In this document: piece after piece, positions 16,203 through 32,525 of the stretch
Layout of the letters: each line of letters begins with the position of its first letter
How positions within the stretch are numbered: position 1 is the stretch's first letter
NCBI GenBank assembly: GCA_012798565.1
Contig: JAAZMX010000007.1
Span: 1-32,525 of the forward strand
DNA length: 32,525 bases
Source of the DNA: Candidatus Kuenenbacteria bacterium
GTDB lineage: Bacteria; Patescibacteriota; Patescibacteriia; UBA2196; GWA2-42-15
Reading direction: 5' to 3'
Position numbers and translations under genes: made by a program
The notes under the pieces: model-generated
Seen by the model: only the letters and a program-made list of their open reading frames with translations
The model's database searches: none
Told to the model about the DNA's origin: nothing

Positions 16203-17012
16203 ATGGATTTAATAACAATTTTGATCGTCAATTACAATACAACTGATTTCATTCAAAACACTCTGGAATTATTACCAAAAATTACTAAGAATAATTATCG
16301 AGTACATATACTAGATAATGGTTCTAGAGTTGACGATTTTGACAAGTTGGCGGCTATCTCCCGTGAACACCCAGAGGTAATCTTGGAGCGAAATGAGACT
16401 AGCTTACGAGGTAGTCTGGCCCATGGCACGGCGATGAATTATCTGGCTGCCGAAGTGAAAACTCCGTATTTTTGTATTTTGGATTCCGACGCACTTTGGC
16501 TCAAAAAAAACTGGGACGAGATACTGATAAATCAATTAAATAATAAAATAAAGATAGTTGGCACTCAAGCTGACGGCCTTTTAAAACCAAAGGATTTTCC
16601 TGCGGTTTATGCCGCTATTTTGGAAACAAAAGCGTTTAAAGAATTAAATATAGACTTTCGACCCAAAGATATCAGCGAAAGTCAAGATACTGGCTTTGAG
16701 ATGCGGGGGAAATATTTAGCGGCTGGATATAATGGTCAAGTATGGCCGGGGAGAAATACTAGGATATATAAAAATGGCCCCTTTGCTAAGCTGACCGGTG
16801 TGGTAGAATATTATCTTGATAATGACGCGGAGATACTAGCTGTGCATTTTGGCCGGGGTAGCAATTTAGGCACTCAAAAATACAAAAAGGGGTGGAGGCG
16901 TTGGTTTTATAAAATACCTCGAATCGGCCGACATTTCTTGCGTCGGAGAGGCGAGAAAGAAACAGCAGAGTGGCGGCATATCTGTCAGGAGATAGTGGCC
17001 AAGCAAATTTAG
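16203..17012 (+). CDS. Glycosyltransferase family 2 (GT-A)
   Basis: 269 aa. The N-terminus TILIVNYNTTDFIQNTLELL is the standard GT2 opening, and HILDNGSRVDD supplies the nucleotide-binding Asp. The metal-binding DxD is DSD at 94-96 in FCILDSDALWL. The C-terminal part contains SESQDTGFEMRGK and a basic end with WRRWFYK that may touch the membrane. It should transfer a sugar from a nucleotide-sugar donor to the growing chain. It begins 19 nt after the radical SAM gene, with no Shine-Dalgarno. Confidence 0.87.
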   Translation: MDLITILIVNYNTTDFIQNTLELLPKITKNNYRVHILDNGSRVDDFDKLAAISREHPEVILERNETSLRGSLAHGTAMNYLAAEVKTPYFCILDSDALWLKKNWDEILINQLNNKIKIVGTQADGLLKPKDFPAVYAAILETKAFKELNIDFRPKDISESQDTGFEMRGKYLAAGYNGQVWPGRNTRIYKNGPFAKLTGVVEYYLDNDAEILAVHFGRGSNLGTQKYKKGWRRWFYKIPRIGRHFLRRRGEKETAEWRHICQEIVAKQI

Positions 17013-20024: not shown

Positions 20025-20990
20025 CTACAAAATGAAGTTGAATAAATAACCTGTAAAAATAATGCCTGCCCCAACAACACCAGCAAAAATCAAGATAAAT
20101 TTGATTTTTATTACTCGTTTTAAAATCATAAATTCTGGTAATGATAAGGCGGTAACCGCCATCATAAAAGCCAGCGATGTCCCCATGGCCACACCTTTCT
20201 CGGCCAGAGCCCCGACGAGTGGAATAATTCCTGCAGCATTGGAGTAAAGTGGAATGCCAATAAGGACGGCTAAGGGTACGGCATACCATTTATCCGCCCC
20301 GGCATACTTGGCCAAGAAGTCGGTTGGCACATAACCGTGTATCCAGGCGCCGAGACCGATGCCAATAAAAATATATGGCCAGACTTTCTTGATTATGTCC
20401 CAGGTATAGTTCCGGGCGTAAGAAAGCCGAACAGGCCACTTCGTATTCAATGTTTCTGTTTTTACATTAATTAAATTTTCATACACAGATGATTCTACTA
20501 AGTTCTGTGCTTTCATTTTTCCGATAATAACACCTGACAAAATTGCAATAACCAATCCGCTCACGATATAAATCAGGGCAATCTTCCAGCCAAAAAGACC
20601 GAGTAACAAAACCAGGGCGACTTCATTGATCATGGGAGAAGCTATCAGGAAAGAAAAAGTTACACCAAGGGGAACACCCGCTTGTACAAAGCCCAAAAAC
20701 AGAGGGACGGCCGAGCATGAACAAAACGGAGTAACAATGCCAAGTAGTGAAGCGATAATATGACCGGAATATTGGTGTTTATAAGAAAGAATGGAACGAA
20801 TCTTGGCTGGGGGCAGAAATGAACGGATAACAGCAACGACGAAAATAATAACTGAGAGTAAGATAAGTATTTTGATTGTATCATAAACAAAAAAATTGAC
20901 TGCTTCGGCAATAAGAGTTTTCTGGGGAATGGCAAGAATATTATATGTAAACCAATCAGCTAATAACTTTATCGGAAAAAATATATCCAT
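20025..20990 (-). CDS. Permease of the PF03773 (ArsP/DUF318) family
   Basis: 321 aa with about eight hydrophobic segments. The family signature TPFCSCSAVPLFLGFVQAGVPLG starts near residue 87, with Cys90 and Cys92 in the CSC motif, followed by FSFLIASPMINEVALVLLLG. The second half carries the mirrored PLYSNAAGIIPLVGALAEKG. Members include ArsP, which exports trivalent organoarsenicals, and related permeases of unknown substrate. No arsenic regulator or thioredoxin gene is adjacent, so arsenic is not implied by context. It is the only gene in the leftward run with no link to glycans. It starts 17 nt after the GT4 gene, with a long AT-rich, Shine-Dalgarno-free upstream. Confidence 0.87.
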   Translation of the reverse strand: MDIFFPIKLLADWFTYNILAIPQKTLIAEAVNFFVYDTIKILILLSVIIFVVAVIRSFLPPAKIRSILSYKHQYSGHIIASLLGIVTPFCSCSAVPLFLGFVQAGVPLGVTFSFLIASPMINEVALVLLLGLFGWKIALIYIVSGLVIAILSGVIIGKMKAQNLVESSVYENLINVKTETLNTKWPVRLSYARNYTWDIIKKVWPYIFIGIGLGAWIHGYVPTDFLAKYAGADKWYAVPLAVLIGIPLYSNAAGIIPLVGALAEKGVAMGTSLAFMMAVTALSLPEFMILKRVIKIKFILIFAGVVGAGIIFTGYLFNFIL

Positions 20991-25140: not shown

Positions 25141-26553
25141 TTAGCTAACACCTAGAATATATTTTAAACCAAGGTAATACTGTTTTATTTTGTCCCAGCT
25201 AGTCAAACGCTTGAGGTGCAACCAAAGAAAAGCAGGGTTAAAATAAAAGGAATGATAAGCGCGTTTTTGCATAGCACGCAGTTCTTCGGCGTCTTTATAG
25301 CCAGAGGGAACATAGGTGGCAGTGGTGCGGCCCTCATAAGGAGAGATAATTTGGCCGTGGGCTAGGGCGTCGTCATAAAGCTCTGTCCCCCATTCGGGAA
25401 ATGTCAGGAGAAATTGAGCAAAGGGAATTTTTAATTCTTTGGCAAATTGAATAGTCTTAAAACCTTTGACTGGTGTTTCGCCAGGCAGACCGAGCATAAA
25501 AGAACCGCGGATATCAATATCTAAATCCAGGGTCCACTTAGCAGCTTGACGCGCCTGTTCCAAGGTCGCACCCTTTTTGATGCGCAGCAATAAATCTGCG
25601 TTGCCAGTTTCAAAACCATAAAAAATACACCAGAGGCCTGATTTTTTGGCGCGCTCCAACATAGTTTTGGTGACTGTATTGACTCGGCCACAAGCGGACC
25701 AGGGAATCTTTAAACCGGCCGCATCTAATAAATCGCAAAATTCCGTTACCCAACCTTCATTAATTAAAAAATTATCATCCCAGAAGGTAACTTCGCGGAT
25801 ACCAAAGTTATCGTATAAATTTTTTATTTCCGAAACGACACGCCTCGGACTATGACGGCGATATTTTTGTGAAGCGCGCCCAGATTCAAAACAAAAAGTA
25901 CAGTGTCCCCAAGGACAACCGCGCGAGGTAATAACATTGGCAACGGGTAATTTTTTGTATTGCAAAGGCAAGGGCATATAAATATGGTAATCATACAGCT
26001 CATGAGCTGGCGGTAACAATTCATCAATATTCATCACTGGTTCGGGCGGCGGATTTTGTTGCCAGCGGCCAGTCTCATCTTTGATCCAAATACCCGAGAT
26101 ATCCTTGTCTATGGCGCCAGTATTTTGCAAGGAAGTGACTATTTTTTGAAAGGTCATCTCCCCTTCTCCATAGCAAAGACAATCAACCATGGGAGTAGCC
26201 TCGATAATTTTCTCCGGAAAACAGGTAGCATGAGCCCCGCCAAAAATGATTGGAGTTTGGGGGTTTAAATTTTTGAGATATTTAATCAAACTATAAGCTT
26301 CTTCGGCCGAAGCAGAGAGAGAAGAAATGCCAATAATTTCCGGCTTAAATTCAGCAACTACGCGACCGACATCTTCATTTTGATAATCAAGCGGCGGACA
26401 ATCAACAATCTTCACCTGGTGACCGGCCTTGAGTAAAGGTGCGGCTAAATAACCAACCCCCAGGGGAGGGAAAAAGCCGGCACGCAATTTATGCTTGGAA
26501 CCATAGCCCTTGGCCATCAGGTCATAGGGGGGGAGAACGAAGAGAATCTTCAT
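25141..26553 (-). CDS. B12-binding-domain radical SAM protein
   Basis: 470 aa. Residues about 1-150 form a cobalamin-binding-type Rossmann domain (FVLPPYD, PPLGVGYLAAPLLKAGH, IIGISSLSASAEEA, PIIFGGAHATCFPE). The radical SAM core follows with TSRGCPWGHCTFC (Cys213, Cys218, Cys221), spaced Cx4Cx2C, whereas Cx3Cx2C is usual. VTFWDDNFLI, FYGFETGNADLL and GSFMLGLPGET are typical core segments. No DxHxxG motif was seen in the B12 domain, which is common in this class. These enzymes do methylations, ring contractions and other radical steps on varied substrates. The reaction here is unknown. It follows the DUF6580-like gene after a repeat-filled 110-nt gap. Confidence 0.88.
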   Translation of the reverse strand: MKILFVLPPYDLMAKGYGSKHKLRAGFFPPLGVGYLAAPLLKAGHQVKIVDCPPLDYQNEDVGRVVAEFKPEIIGISSLSASAEEAYSLIKYLKNLNPQTPIIFGGAHATCFPEKIIEATPMVDCLCYGEGEMTFQKIVTSLQNTGAIDKDISGIWIKDETGRWQQNPPPEPVMNIDELLPPAHELYDYHIYMPLPLQYKKLPVANVITSRGCPWGHCTFCFESGRASQKYRRHSPRRVVSEIKNLYDNFGIREVTFWDDNFLINEGWVTEFCDLLDAAGLKIPWSACGRVNTVTKTMLERAKKSGLWCIFYGFETGNADLLLRIKKGATLEQARQAAKWTLDLDIDIRGSFMLGLPGETPVKGFKTIQFAKELKIPFAQFLLTFPEWGTELYDDALAHGQIISPYEGRTTATYVPSGYKDAEELRAMQKRAYHSFYFNPAFLWLHLKRLTSWDKIKQYYLGLKYILGVS

Positions 26554-26663
26554 AATCTACAAATATACGAATCAGTTACGAATTTACAAATATTGGATAA
26601 ATCCCAAATTACAAATCCAAAATCCAAAATAAATTACAAGCACCAAATCTAAAATTTAAAACA
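26554..26663. repeat. AT-rich repeat tract (TACAAAT/TACGAAT and CCAAAT words)
   Basis: The heptamer TACRAAT occurs at 26558, 26566, 26577, 26585 and 26610, followed by overlapping AAATCCAAAATCCAAAAT and CACCAAATCTAAAAT. The tract lies between two same-strand genes and has no hairpin or ORF. Similar low-complexity gap fillers are familiar in CPR genomes (general knowledge). Confidence 0.7.
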
Positions 26664-27188
26664 CTAAGCCCTGGAAATATTTTTAGTTTTCACTCTTTGC
26701 ATATACGGAACTAAACTATAAATCCCAAAGAAAACGGCGGTGAAAAATAAATCGCCGATAAGGGTATTTTTAAAGAAAGGAATAGCCAGAGTAAAGCAGG
26801 AACCGAGACCAGCTAAATCCAAGGAATAAAAACCACCGAAATACCAAAAGGCTAGATTGGTAATAATAAAAAATAATAACGAACCAGCAAAGGCTCCGAG
26901 ACCGACCGCCCACCAGTGATAGTGTTTTTTGAGGTAAAGACCAATAAGACTAATTAAAACAAAACTAAGGTAAACAGAGGCCATCAGGCGCCAGTCATAA
27001 AAACCTAAAAAAATGTCACTCGAGACCAAGATAATAACGGGGATGAGGAAAAAGCGATTACGAGCTAGAAAAAAGCCAGCAAAAATGGCGATGGCGCCAA
27101 GCGGAGAAAAATTTGGTGGATAATCAAACAAGCGACAGATAAAACCGAGAACAACAAGAATACTGGCAATGAGAAGTTTGTTTTTCAT
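26664..27188 (-). CDS. DUF6580-like small integral membrane protein
   Basis: 174 aa with five or six hydrophobic segments. The N-terminal FDYPPNFSPLGAIAIFAGFF, then SSDIFLGFYDW and FIITNLAFWYFGGFY with AIPFFKNTLIGDLFFTAVFFGIY, match the pattern of DUF6580 proteins, whose function is unknown; an ECF-transporter-substrate-subunit-like fold has been suggested for such proteins, but I cannot test it. It begins 3 nt after the methyltransferase stop, so the two are probably one transcript. Confidence 0.75.
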   Translation of the reverse strand: MKNKLLIASILVVLGFICRLFDYPPNFSPLGAIAIFAGFFLARNRFFLIPVIILVSSDIFLGFYDWRLMASVYLSFVLISLIGLYLKKHYHWWAVGLGAFAGSLLFFIITNLAFWYFGGFYSLDLAGLGSCFTLAIPFFKNTLIGDLFFTAVFFGIYSLVPYMQRVKTKNISRA

Positions 27189-27191
27189 AAT

Positions 27192-28046
27192 TTATTTTTT
27201 CTTACCTAAATAATAAAAAGCTAAGGCAATATTTTCAGCGCCAGGAAAGTGAGAGAGTAGAAGATCAAATAATTTCAACGGGCTAAAAATAAATAAAAAA
27301 ATAAGAGACCAAAATTGCTGTAACGGACGCCAACTAAAACTCAAGAGTAAGGCAAAAAATTCTTGAGCGACTACCGCAAAGGCAGAGGCAGGTCCACATC
27401 TAATCCCAATTTCTTTTTCTTCAAAATCAACCAGGAGCGCGCGTAAACCTGATTTTGTCCAGCGCGTATAATCGCCAGGCGAAGAATGAAAATTTTCTAT
27501 AAAAGGAGCAACTAAATAAAGTAGGCCGCCAGGTTTTAAAACTCTTTTTATTTCCGCCAAGGTAGCTTGCGGGTTGGGAACATGTTCTAAAACTAATTCC
27601 GCTACAATGGCATCAACGGTGGTGCTGGCAAAAGGTAAATGATTGATGTCGGCAATAATATCGACATTGGGCAAAGGCAAAAAATCCAGATTAATAATGT
27701 CGGGGCGCAAACGTTTTGGCCCGGAACCAAGATTGATAATCAATTTATCTTCTCCCAAATCAGCCAGGGCCTGTTTGGCACTTTGACCAACAAATAAAGC
27801 ACCGAGCAGATAATAAAAAAAATGATAAAGACTTGATTGATGCTTAAATTTATTTTTTAAACTAACAAGAAGGCTGTCAGAAGGCTGGGGGTTGTTGGCA
27901 CTCTCAAAAGAATAAAAAACTACTGACTTGGCTGAATGGGTATATTTAGTTTGGCAATTAGGGCAAGTTAAATGGCTGGGATTATTTTGTAAAGCCACTA
28001 AACACTGGGGACAAAAAAGATGATTAAGAAGGTCAGAAGTGAACAT
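27192..28046 (-). CDS. Class I methyltransferase with N-terminal zinc ribbon (Trm112-like)
   Basis: 284 aa. Residues 1-45 form a zinc ribbon with Cys12, Cys15, Cys28 and Cys31 (CPQC...CPNC). The methyltransferase domain has motif I LIINLGSGPKRLRPDIINLD (about 102-121), DINHLPFASTTVDAIVAELVLEHV and IKRVLKPGGLLYLVAPF. The usual first Gly-rich loop reads GSGPKR. A hydrophobic C-terminal segment (about 230-265, FSWRPLQQFWSLIFLFIFSPLKLF) suggests membrane association. Small-molecule or glycan methylation is likely; the target is not visible. It follows the two-domain methyltransferase gene by 18 nt. Confidence 0.83.
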   Translation of the reverse strand: MFTSDLLNHLFCPQCLVALQNNPSHLTCPNCQTKYTHSAKSVVFYSFESANNPQPSDSLLVSLKNKFKHQSSLYHFFYYLLGALFVGQSAKQALADLGEDKLIINLGSGPKRLRPDIINLDFLPLPNVDIIADINHLPFASTTVDAIVAELVLEHVPNPQATLAEIKRVLKPGGLLYLVAPFIENFHSSPGDYTRWTKSGLRALLVDFEEKEIGIRCGPASAFAVVAQEFFALLLSFSWRPLQQFWSLIFLFIFSPLKLFDLLLSHFPGAENIALAFYYLGKKK

Positions 28047-28064
28047 TATTTTGAACTTAATATT

Positions 28065-29561
28065 TTAGATCTTTTGACATAGGACAATATAGTGGATGGG
28101 TAGTAAAGAAAAGGGTACCTTCTTGATTTTAATAATCTTTAACTGGCCTCTGATAATCTCCTCAAATACTTTTTGATCCATGAAACGCAGGTGCCATTCG
28201 TCAGTCATGCGAGTGGGTATGCCCTTGAATAAAAGCTGAAGTAAGCCAACCTTATGGAGGATGGCTTTAATTTTATTTAATAAATTTTCATAAGGAAAGG
28301 TAATGACAATCAGGCTTGTTGGCTTGGCGACTGAGGTGATCTGTTCAATCATTTTTTGGGGAGATTTTATATGTTCAATTACTTCACTGGATAAAATTTT
28401 GTCATAGGTTTTGGCCTTAACTTCTGGAGGTAAATCTTCCACATTACCATAAATCAAAGTGACCGGATGGAGAGCTAATTTTTGGCGAGCGATAGCCAAA
28501 AGATAAGGAGATAAATCAACCCCAGTGAGCTGGCCACTTTTTATTTTTAAAAGCATATGGCCAGTGCCACAACCTAAATCCAAAACCTGATCAGCGGGAT
28601 TAATAGCTAATAGCTTTATTATGGCTCGAGTGCGTAGATAGGTAATTAAGTTAATAAACGGATTTTTACTCTGATGATAATGGTCAGGATTATATTTAAC
28701 AGCCATCCGCTCGTTCCAGCTCTCAAAATCGCTAGGAGGCATTGCGGCTTTCTCCTGTTGCTCCTGAGAATAATTATTCTCCGTCGATTCAACCGCCAAT
28801 TTTTGACCAATAACAGTCCAGCTATTACTATTAACGCGATAAATATGTAAATCGGTAATACCTTTTTGCTCGGCCAAAAGAGAAAGTGCTTCTTCCCTAG
28901 TCCAATAATTAGCAACCCTCGGAATCAGCTGATCAAAAACAATACTATGGATATGATAAAATTTAAAAGTAGACAGCTGTTGAAAGTAGGGAGAACCTTG
29001 TGGTTCGATTTTGACCCACAGCCACACGGGGACAGACAAAAAGTAAGCAATTAAGTGCACGAGACTGACTGGTAGACGGGAAGTAAAATTGCGCCGCAAA
29101 AAATTAACCACACGAATTATGCCTTCATTGCCTTCTCGACCATAAACCCAGAGGATAATTTTGCCGCCAGGTTTAGCAGCACGCACCAGATTTTTAACAG
29201 CCAACTCTGGATTTTCCAGATGGTGAATAACGCCAATACTCATCACTAAATCAAAATGATTTTCATAAGTGATACTATAAATATCATTAAACTCTACATT
29301 GACTCCGGGTAGGCCAGCCAAATTATGTCTGGCCGCGGCTACTGATCTTTTATCACAATCAAAAGCCACTACTTCTTTGGCTCCCCATTTACTGGCCCAG
29401 TAACTATTACGACCCATCCCGCAGCCAGCGTCCAAAACACTAGCATTACGAAAATCAGCCTCTGTTAGAGGCGCCACCCATTTCGTAAATTGGAGATAAT
29501 AATTCGGGTCGATTGCAGAGTATTTGGCCCATTCATAACCGAATCTTTCAGAGGAAGACAT
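28065..29561 (-). CDS. Protein with two class I methyltransferase domains
   Basis: 498 aa from the ATG at 29561 (MSSSERFGYEWAKY). An in-frame TTG at 29618 would give 517 aa, but its added residues look like untranslated leader. Domain 1 has VLDAGCGMGRNSYWASKWG (42-60) and IGVIHHLENPELA, then a region with hydrophobic stretches at about 165-185. Domain 2 has QVLDLGCGTGHMLL (325-338), ARQKLALHPVTLIYGNVEDLPPE and SSEVIEHIKSP. Between them, residues about 258-300 are a Glu/Gln/Ser-rich linker. Both glycine loops are intact, so both may be active. Two methylations of one glycan or lipid end are a reasonable guess. It is transcribed away from the plus-strand gene at 29716. Confidence 0.85.
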   Translation of the reverse strand: MSSSERFGYEWAKYSAIDPNYYLQFTKWVAPLTEADFRNASVLDAGCGMGRNSYWASKWGAKEVVAFDCDKRSVAAARHNLAGLPGVNVEFNDIYSITYENHFDLVMSIGVIHHLENPELAVKNLVRAAKPGGKIILWVYGREGNEGIIRVVNFLRRNFTSRLPVSLVHLIAYFLSVPVWLWVKIEPQGSPYFQQLSTFKFYHIHSIVFDQLIPRVANYWTREEALSLLAEQKGITDLHIYRVNSNSWTVIGQKLAVESTENNYSQEQQEKAAMPPSDFESWNERMAVKYNPDHYHQSKNPFINLITYLRTRAIIKLLAINPADQVLDLGCGTGHMLLKIKSGQLTGVDLSPYLLAIARQKLALHPVTLIYGNVEDLPPEVKAKTYDKILSSEVIEHIKSPQKMIEQITSVAKPTSLIVITFPYENLLNKIKAILHKVGLLQLLFKGIPTRMTDEWHLRFMDQKVFEEIIRGQLKIIKIKKVPFSLLPIHYIVLCQKI

Positions 29562-29611
29562 GAAAAAATATTCAGCTTTTACTGCCTTTAGCTTAGCAAT
29601 TTTGAGATGAG

Positions 29612-29640
29612 TTGACAAGACTTGAGTTTGGTGGTTAAAT
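29612..29640 (+). promoter_or_regulatory. Sigma70-type promoter for the plus-strand gene at 29716
   Basis: A perfect -35 TTGACA (29612-29617) lies 17 nt before TTAAAT (29635-29640), a 4-of-6 match to the -10 consensus. Transcription would start near 29647, leaving a leader of about 68 nt that carries a strong Shine-Dalgarno. On the opposite strand this region is the leader of the double methyltransferase gene. Confidence 0.6.
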
Positions 29641-29700
29641 TGAGAGAAATAAAAAGAAAAATCATGAAGTAAAAATAATTCAAAAGGCAGTGAACCTTAG

Positions 29701-29707
29701 CAAGGAG
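29701..29707 (+). promoter_or_regulatory. Canonical Shine-Dalgarno AAGGAGG
   Basis: CAAGGAGG ends at 29707, 8 nt before the ATG at 29716, at ideal spacing. It is the only full consensus ribosome binding site noticed before any start in the window, where most starts have AAT or ATT directly before ATG and no purine run. It fixes the start of this gene. Confidence 0.85.
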
Positions 29708-29715
29708 GCAATACC

Positions 29716-30435
29716 ATGCTAGCTCTTATAACATTAACGCATTTTTTCATAGGGACCGCATTGATCACTATGTTAGGTGGAAACTGGCTGCAGTGCTTGG
29801 CTGCCGGAATTATAACGAGCGTCTCTGACGTCGCGGCGTTCGTGCAGGTGGTAATCGATTCACTAAAAAGAAAGGAACTTTTCTCGCGACAATCAAAGAT
29901 AATGATTGCCGCAAAAGAAATTTCCCACTCCCATTTTCTCTGGGTACTGGCCATTGTCGTTTTAGTGACTTTGTATCCCATGGAGTATGGCGTTTTTGTA
30001 CTCCCCTCGGCACTCCTTGTACTGACTCTAATTCTGGCTGCTATATTAAAGAATGCGTCGGCGGTGATCCGTCAGCTGGTTTCGTGGGTCCTATTATTGA
30101 TGGCAACATTGTTCGCTTTTTTTATAGGGATTGCTTTACACGAATATCCCTATACAATGTGGCCGGCAAGTATCACCCTCATGCTACTGTTGCATTGGAT
30201 AATGGACGGACTGACGCACAGCTGGGGAATAAGCGACGCTCGACGCTCTCTTGATCTATCAAAGGAGGAAGCCGATGTTTCTATGACGTGGCCGCTCGGC
30301 TTCTGGGTTGATTGTGGAATATACGATTACCGTCCGGAAGAGAACACATTGCTATGGAAAATTCTACCGAAGAAAAAATTGGAGGTGGCGGTGTTCGCGG
30401 CAGCTATCGCGATAACCGCCATAAAGATATTATAA
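29716..30435 (+). CDS. Unrecognised polytopic membrane protein, foreign-looking
   Basis: 239 aa with about five or six hydrophobic segments (roughly 1-35, 75-95, 95-115, 120-145, 150-170, 222-239). I do not recognise the family with confidence. LTHFFIGTALITMLGG at the N-terminus and LLLHWIMDGLTHSWGI near 155-170, with the spaced His-Asp-His, faintly recall YdjM/DUF457-type membrane proteins, so a membrane metal-site protein is a weak guess. SMTWPLGFWVDCGIYDYRPEE lies in the last loop. The gene has its own promoter, a consensus Shine-Dalgarno and its own terminator. In the line 30061-30120 I count 29 of 60 G/C against 19 of 60 in 31021-31080. All of this suggests transfer from another genome. 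Confidence 0.8.
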   Translation: MLALITLTHFFIGTALITMLGGNWLQCLAAGIITSVSDVAAFVQVVIDSLKRKELFSRQSKIMIAAKEISHSHFLWVLAIVVLVTLYPMEYGVFVLPSALLVLTLILAAILKNASAVIRQLVSWVLLLMATLFAFFIGIALHEYPYTMWPASITLMLLLHWIMDGLTHSWGISDARRSLDLSKEEADVSMTWPLGFWVDCGIYDYRPEENTLLWKILPKKKLEVAVFAAAIAITAIKIL

Positions 30436-30456
30436 ATTCGTTCCGGAAAGGAAACA

Positions 30457-30497
30457 AAAAGCGGACGTGGAAAATTCCAGGTCCGCTTTTATTTTTT
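30457..30497. terminator. Intrinsic terminator between convergent genes
   Basis: AAAAGCGGAC (30457-30466) pairs with GTCCGCTTTT (30481-30490). An inner G-G mismatch and a TGGA/TCCA extension follow. A T-rich stretch (TTTTATTTTTT) follows on the plus strand, and the A run before the stem gives TTTTT on the minus strand, so it can stop both the gene at 29716-30435 and the leftward gene ending at 30519. Confidence 0.88.
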
Positions 30498-30518
30498 ACA
30501 AATATTTACTTACAAAAA

Positions 30519-32501
30519 TTAATCAGTAAGTCGATAAATCTGGGCGTATTCGGAGCCAGCAGAGGCGGCGTACTCTAATTTGAGAGGTAGCTGCTCCAAA
30601 CACTTCTCGGCCAAGCCAGTGGGCCAATATTGATTAATATAAAGATAATGATAATTTAAAGCGCGCACCGCGGCTAAATCGCAATCTTTTTCCAGAGTTT
30701 GAAAGGTAGTGACAAGCTCTGGGTCAACATCAGTATAAAAATTTTCCACGAATTGGTAACGTGAAGCCAAGCGACCAGTATAGACTATAAACTTGGCATT
30801 GGGTGTCTGGGGAATTTGGGGGTCGCTATAGGTAAGAAAATGATCTTTACCAGTCGTATGTTGTTTGACCCAACTATAAACATCTTTTTCTAAATTCGTA
30901 GGAACGAGATAATATTGGAAAAACGGTGAAAGGTGGTCAGCGGTGCGACCAGCAGGAATAATAATATAGGCAACGAGATAAATAAGGCCACTGGCAACCA
31001 TAATAAGCAGAATGATAAAAGCACCTATTTTAAAATAGATTTTAGGGTAGTGCTCAATAAAATTAAAGATAGCCAAAGCGATAAGCAAAGCCCAGAAGGC
31101 AGAGGTGAGATAAAAAAATCTAGCTAATTCATGATTATGAGCTGGATCAAGCACCACACAGAATGGCACAGCAAAAGCCACAAAAGAAGCGAGGGCAAAT
31201 AAAATGACTTCTTGGCTCAGGGAGGAAAGATGTTGGCGAAATAACCAGACAAGGGCAGGAATAATGAGAATAAACAAAAAGCCAAGTTGAGTAATAAAAA
31301 AAGAACTCCAGGGATAAAGATTGCCGTGGCCAGCCCAAACATAGCGCGGAAAGCTAGAGAAAAAAGAAGGTGCCCAGGTAGCGCTCATACTACCAATACT
31401 ATAACTAGTGAGGACGCCACCTTGATAGCGCACAATAATAGCGCTGATGATAACGGCTGCCAGGGAAATCAAAAAATTTTTAGCAACTACTCCCCTATTT
31501 TGGCCAAGAAGATAAGCAAGAAAAGGATAAACTAAAAAGGAAAATAATAGAACGGCTAAATAAGTTTCCGCAGTGAGACCAAGTAAAGAAACAGAGATTA
31601 CTAAGGTGATGAAAATACCCGGGCGCTGAAGAAAATTGGTCTTACTCGAGGATAACAGGCGGAAGTAGAGAAAAACAGAAACAGTAAATAGAATAAAGGC
31701 CAAAGGGACCCATTCAATATTAAAAATTTTTAGGAACGGACTAAAAAAAGAATTAAAAGAATTGGTGATAAATTTATAGTTCACGGGAACATGCCTAATA
31801 AACTTATCAAAAATTACCGGCAATATTTGGAAAATATTTAGGAAAGCGAGATTGCTGGCCAGTAAAACTACCAGAGAAATAAATAATGATTTTTTAGGCT
31901 GGCGCGTCGCGAAAAATAAGATGGCAAAAATTAGGGTAGAAAAAATAAAAATAAAAATTGCTCGGTGGATATCAGTAATATACCAAATAGGAAGCGTGGT
32001 AATTTTATGAACCGCGGCGGCTAAAAGGAGTGGGGCATAATGGTAACTGAGAGGCGTTGGTGGTCCATCTAGGCGGACAATGGGAAAATTACCCTCACTG
32101 ATAGTGGCGATAGTGGGTAGACTGCCAATAGCTATTTCGTCGCCACTTAAACTGCGCAGTCCGATCACTAAAACAAATAGAGAAATAGCCAAAAAGATCA
32201 AGAATATTTTTGAGTATGAATAAGACTGACGATGATTTGTTGGCTTGTTAATGGTCCGCGGAGTAAAGATTAAGAGGATCACCCCGACTAAACCGTAAAA
32301 AATTGTTAGGGTTGGAAATAAGCTAGTGATGGGGAAAAAATAACCAAAAATATTCAAAGTAAAGAGATAGAAGGTCGTGCCGATAATAGGGGCTAGAGGA
32401 ATAAGAAACTCTGACCGTTGTTCTTTGAGCACTAGCTTGCTAAATTGCCAGCCAAAAAGACACAGGGACAACCAAAATAAAAACAGTAGGATAATACTCA
32501 T
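30519..32501 (-). CDS. Large polytopic membrane protein, GT-C glycosyltransferase-like
   Basis: 660 aa from the ATG at 32501. About fourteen hydrophobic segments fill residues 1-510, then a soluble C-terminal region of about 150 residues with YLYINQYWPTGLAEKCLEQL. After a membrane helix ending at about 114 comes LRSLSGDEIAIGSLPTIATISEGNFP, with Asp121-Glu122 placed like the catalytic acidic pair of GT-C enzymes, and PTPLSYHYAPLLLAAAVHK in the same loop. This suggests a polyprenyl-phosphate-sugar-dependent transferase of the outer membrane face; family-level assignment was not possible. A second acidic motif, LDPAHNHELARFFYL, sits in a later loop. It converges on the foreign-looking gene at 29716. 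Confidence 0.75.
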   Translation of the reverse strand: MSIILLFLFWLSLCLFGWQFSKLVLKEQRSEFLIPLAPIIGTTFYLFTLNIFGYFFPITSLFPTLTIFYGLVGVILLIFTPRTINKPTNHRQSYSYSKIFLIFLAISLFVLVIGLRSLSGDEIAIGSLPTIATISEGNFPIVRLDGPPTPLSYHYAPLLLAAAVHKITTLPIWYITDIHRAIFIFIFSTLIFAILFFATRQPKKSLFISLVVLLASNLAFLNIFQILPVIFDKFIRHVPVNYKFITNSFNSFFSPFLKIFNIEWVPLAFILFTVSVFLYFRLLSSSKTNFLQRPGIFITLVISVSLLGLTAETYLAVLLFSFLVYPFLAYLLGQNRGVVAKNFLISLAAVIISAIIVRYQGGVLTSYSIGSMSATWAPSFFSSFPRYVWAGHGNLYPWSSFFITQLGFLFILIIPALVWLFRQHLSSLSQEVILFALASFVAFAVPFCVVLDPAHNHELARFFYLTSAFWALLIALAIFNFIEHYPKIYFKIGAFIILLIMVASGLIYLVAYIIIPAGRTADHLSPFFQYYLVPTNLEKDVYSWVKQHTTGKDHFLTYSDPQIPQTPNAKFIVYTGRLASRYQFVENFYTDVDPELVTTFQTLEKDCDLAAVRALNYHYLYINQYWPTGLAEKCLEQLPLKLEYAASAGSEYAQIYRLTD

Positions 32502-32525
32502 AGAATTGGTTTTTTATCTAGTGAA

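Follow-up and report, generated by a model that had tools for sequence, protein, structure and literature searches.

A probably foreign membrane-protein gene with its own Shine-Dalgarno sequence in the surface-glycan cluster of a reduced-genome bacterium

Single imported genes are common. YdjM proteins (PF04307), the described family that comes nearest to the product discussed below, are inner-membrane putative metal-dependent hydrolases. Single-gene transfers have been documented in Patescibacteria (PMC12455944). In Bacteroidia, such as Flavobacterium johnsoniae, native genes lack a Shine-Dalgarno (SD) sequence while the anti-SD is kept (PMC6847099, PMC9976891). The window analysed here, 32,525 nucleotides in length, corresponds to the entire contig C16 of a Candidatus Kuenenbacteria bacterium, whose draft genome comprises 1.06 Mb in 75 contigs with an estimated contamination of 1.1%, and its content is a surface-glycan gene cluster. 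Within this cluster lies an orphan gene resembling the individually transferred Patescibacteria genes (PMC12455944), in that a single gene would have been imported into a reduced genome. It differs from them in having no identifiable donor and in carrying an SD, which the native genes of its host do not. The host is, in turn, similar to the Bacteroidia in its SD-less native genes and in the anti-SD of the 16S of its family, whereas its few SD genes are mainly codon-atypical and absent from a sister genome of the same genus (G001).

The orphan ORF stands alone on its strand, with a double methyltransferase on one side and a 660-aa protein on the other, both encoded on the minus strand (Table 1). 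An earlier note, made from the sequence alone, had described it as a cassette with its own promoter, SD and terminator, and these signals differ in how well they hold. The AAGGAGG motif does stand at good spacing from the start codon, and the orphan is the only gene of the window with a strong SD, the leaders of the remaining called genes being A/T-rich; the observation that the other genes lack an SD is, thus, correct for strong SDs among the window's called genes. TTGACA at 29612, followed 18 nt further down by TAAATT, is the top promoter-like site of positions 26001-32525. In total, however, the scan returned 19 sites against 15.2 +/- 3.8 expected, with no clear excess, so that the promoter evidence is weak and a promoter belonging to the gene is plausible. 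A 12-nt inverted repeat (92%; 29578-29589 and 29683-29694) brackets this promoter-like region and may be due to chance. Downstream, a strong hairpin is indeed present; since it is T-tailed both ways, it could just as well serve as terminator of the converging minus-strand gene, whose end is at 30519, and is not clearly the orphan's own. Strict T-tailed hairpins are, moreover, frequent genome-wide (49 in 0.93 Mb). Given this frequency and the bidirectionality of the hairpin, the terminator was rejected as a sign of foreign origin.

Table 1. Features in and around the orphan gene (positions are those of the window)
Feature	Positions	Strand	Basis or remark
Fused double methyltransferase, native flank	28065-29562, likely ATG 29562 (region given to 29618)	-	start inferred from sequence
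Divergent A/T-rich intergenic region, methyltransferase to orphan gene	29563-29715	.	G+C 0.32
Promoter-like TTGACA-18-TAAATT, 10/12	29612-29641	+	consensus match only
Shine-Dalgarno AAGGAGG	29702-29708	+	direct reading; 7 nt 5' of ATG
239-aa orphan, predicted 7-TM membrane protein	29716-30435	+	ATG start; codon outlier; topology; no homologue
Strong hairpin, T tails on both strands (bidirectional terminator)	30457-30490	.	region MFE -26.6 kcal/mol, z = -6.1
660-aa multi-pass membrane protein, glycosyltransferase-like, native flank	30519-32501	-	33-35% identity to sister copy

The G+C content of the orphan ORF had also been put forward as visibly higher than that of its neighbours. This is true locally (46% versus 38-41% in the flanks) but unremarkable across the genome, where ORFs average 42.8% (sd 4.6%) and 24% of them exceed the 46.0% of the orphan; G+C was, therefore, discarded as proof of foreignness. 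The 3-mer distance of the ORF from the genome was not unusual either. Codon usage gave a different result: the ORF ranks second most atypical among 756 ORFs and first among 608 once G+C is corrected for, with z = -6.3 relative to simulated genes that follow the native codon table. A composition no different from the genome mean had been named beforehand as an outcome that would count against transfer, and the orphan lies within the normal spread for G+C but outside it for codon usage. Its codons are used almost uniformly and are not optimised (log L -283 under a uniform table versus -301 under the genome table). This argues against a native, fast-evolving or lineage-specific orphan, or a de novo gene, whose SD and codons would stem from selection on expression. 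Such an origin would agree with the lack of a homologue in the collections searched and with the native-type, A/T-rich intergenic DNA on both sides of the gene (G+C 0.32-0.34), but the sister lacks the SD genes as a class, as detailed below, and the well-formed seven-helix topology speaks against de novo emergence. We consider a native origin improbable.

Contig C22 of the sister G001 carries counterparts of almost all window genes in the same order, and none for the orphan ORF. The gene was likewise not found in 92 further relatives (94 genomes searched, including its own and the sister), so that orthologues at the same locus across the lineage, which would have opposed a recent arrival, were not encountered. 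Elsewhere in this otherwise collinear cluster, a glycosyltransferase (16203-17012) has no sister homologue, and a permease (20025-20990) has its best sister match on a different contig. At the junction itself, the sister shows a methyltransferase reduced to the C-terminal half, a glycosyltransferase-like gene and a second methyltransferase, whereas the window shows the glycosyltransferase-like gene, the orphan ORF, the fused methyltransferase and the second methyltransferase. The fusion joins two domains, and the sister's C-terminal half is a separate gene of 227 aa, situated on the opposite side of the glycosyltransferase-like gene. Because gene order at the junction is rearranged relative to the sister, there is no clean empty site. 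No integrase, hallmark genes or clear target-site repeats were seen at the site, which holds a lone gene, short of a prophage or mobile element. The surroundings also bear on whether DNA of another organism was wrongly joined into the contig during assembly. The contig number and the contamination estimate of the draft would allow for it, but for such a chimera the assembly must have erred twice in 0.9 kb, each time in intergenic DNA that is as A/T-rich as native DNA of this kind, and both flanking genes have counterparts in one sister cluster, which makes it highly improbable.

Profile and homology searches, which the earlier note had proposed as a check, retrieved no homologue in the databases or genomes searched. 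Pfam, NCBIfam, PHROGs, PADLOC and PDB yielded nothing beyond weak, chance-level matches to the orphan protein, and 380 genomes of the phylum yielded two weak matches only (E 0.005 per genome), as chance predicts. Collections of phages, plasmids, viral contigs and genome contigs likewise gave no homologue at the sensitivity applied; the contig collections were searched with short exact peptide patterns, which detect close relatives only. A scan of genome contigs for HWxxDxxTHSW returned 31 matches, mostly very short or unrelated frames, with no relative among them, and the lone motif match in viral contigs was a chance frame. No closer homologue that could point to a donor was found in a distant organism within the collections searched. 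That neither donor nor homologue was found weakens the phylogenetic case for transfer.

The 239-aa product was described at the outset as a membrane protein, and its seven hydrophobic helices agree with this. All 15 K/R residues of the loops fall after TM2, 4 and 6 and none after TM1, 3 and 5, a perfect positive-inside pattern. This is strong support for a genuine membrane protein whose N-terminus faces inwards, and the product is almost certainly a membrane protein. In the predicted topology, helices 1, 2, 3 and 6 carry H9, D38, H71/H73 and H160/D164/H168 at or near their cytoplasmic ends. These positions recall YdjM proteins, which are also multi-pass, with TH near the N-terminus, an Asp in TM2, [ST]HS at the start of TM3, and HxxxDxxT ending a later helix, followed by WP and a final helix. 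The conserved residues of the family run in the order TH, PDxD, HRx[LIF][ST]HS, HxxxDxxT and WP. The orphan retains TH, one D, SHS, HxxxDxxT and WP in the YdjM order, but lacks PDxD (it reads SDVA) and the HR of HRxxTHS; in addition, its HxxxDxxT helix is preceded by further sequence that amounts to about two helices, and is followed by an insertion. A signature chosen after the alignment had been seen, TH..[ST]H[SAG]..HxxxDxxT..WP (signature A), matches the orphan, 13 out of 30 YdjM proteins of the phylum and no other host ORF. Among shuffles of the query, it was matched by 0 of 100,000 and the looser signature C by 35 of 100,000, in a test that was partly post hoc.

Profile comparisons did not reach significance. 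A Pfam search gave no PF04307 match even at E 1, a home-made YdjM profile scored the orphan at the level of shuffled sequences, and HMM and HHalign comparisons with YdjM were not significant. A single-sequence AlphaFold model, built with no alignment, had a pLDDT of 48.7 and was not usable, and Foldseek searches with that model returned no match below E 2.8. Considering the profile and HHalign results, the loss of PDxD and HR, and the post hoc character of the signature, we describe the orphan as a protein that may function in the manner of YdjM, without assigning it to the family; a YdjM-like function is conceivable, if somewhat doubtful. The foreign gene may instead have an unrelated function and encode, for example, a membrane protein of a phage or plasmid (for superinfection exclusion or immunity, or holin-like) or a transporter fragment, with the YdjM likeness due to chance. 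The YdjM profile scores and the stand-alone, cargo-like layout fit this, as does the best match, a weak one over residues 2-80 to phrog_37384 (E 0.003), a phage family with no assigned function. The complete lack of the ordered His/Asp signature among 100,000 shuffles goes against it, as does the lack of matches in phages, plasmids, viral contigs and PADLOC, and we regard it as a tentative possibility. No link was made between phrog_37384 and YdjM, because YdjM proteins match phrog_27171 and phrog_20744 instead. A search with phrog_37384 itself matched no genome of the phylum and not the control either, so that its negative result carries no weight.

To place the SD of the orphan in its genomic context, ORFs of at least 450 bases were surveyed; genes were called mechanically as the longest ORFs, so start sites are approximate. 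A strong SD precedes 25 out of 608 host ORFs, a set in which some genes may sit on contaminant contigs. As a class, these 25 genes are codon-atypical (Mann-Whitney p = 6e-10; p = 9e-9 after G+C correction), and 19 of them are missing from the sister, versus 150 out of 583 SD-less genes (Fisher p = 4e-7). In the reverse comparison, the 24 SD-bearing ORFs of the sister are codon-atypical as well (p = 7e-8), with a weak signal once G+C is corrected for (p = 0.012), and 16 of the 24 are absent from the host, compared with 167 out of 590 others (p = 1.5e-4). Since SD genes are codon-atypical and mostly absent from the sister, and the pattern is repeated in the sister, a strong SD seems to be a sign of import in this lineage, where SDs are rare. 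The 16S of three genomes of the family ends in GGATCACCTCCTTTCT, indicating that the anti-SD is kept; the 16S gene was not found in the host assembly.

Two further loci of the host draw attention. On contig C44 (G000, L054; 209-8806, minus strand), a run of strong-SD, codon-atypical genes includes Cas6 (PADLOC E 1e-34) and a DEAD helicase. All five SD-bearing ORFs of the run are absent from the sister, and the run probably represents a defence locus, CRISPR-Cas or related, that was imported. CRISPR-Cas is typically a mobile kind of system; no CRISPR array was found on the 20 kb of C44 examined. On C51 (G000, L061; 2790-4448), a codon-atypical gene with an SD encodes a type IX secretion sorting domain, which is odd for the lineage and points to either an import or a contaminant contig.

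Taken on codon usage (z = -6.3), the start signal and absence from relatives, the proposal of a recently transferred cargo gene is supported, although its G+C argument fails, and the orphan is very probably foreign, acquired by transfer rather than native. A function unrelated to glycan synthesis, also suggested in the earlier note, is plausible, because the protein has no resemblance to known glycan enzymes and its gene stands alone on the opposite strand. The reading that we favour, and consider likely as a whole, is that of a single foreign gene in a junction of the glycan cluster, with its own SD and possibly encoding a divergent YdjM-like membrane metal hydrolase. The gene would have entered a lineage-variable junction of the surface-glycan cluster of a reduced-genome bacterium, bringing its SD along. 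Its product would be an inner-membrane protein of about seven helices with the N-terminus inside, possibly a YdjM-like metal-binding hydrolase whose substrate, a lipid or another membrane compound, would be attacked from the cytoplasmic side. Expression could be autonomous, with initiation depending on the SD; the host's own genes start on leaders that are A/T-rich and have no SD, but its family keeps the anti-SD. A stronger version, in which an SD alone marks recent imports in SD-poor Patescibacteria-like lineages and the orphan, as one such import, is the first of a new membrane metal hydrolase family, with SD-dependent initiation of its translation in an otherwise SD-independent host, seems to us rather unlikely.

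Within the literature searched, we found no paper that uses the SD as a marker of import. Going by the two genomes of one genus compared here, the SD would point out recent arrivals even where G+C fails to, and would do so in uncultured organisms whose donors have not been sampled. A further question is whether an SD-independent lineage with a retained anti-SD has ribosomes that can still use it for newcomers.
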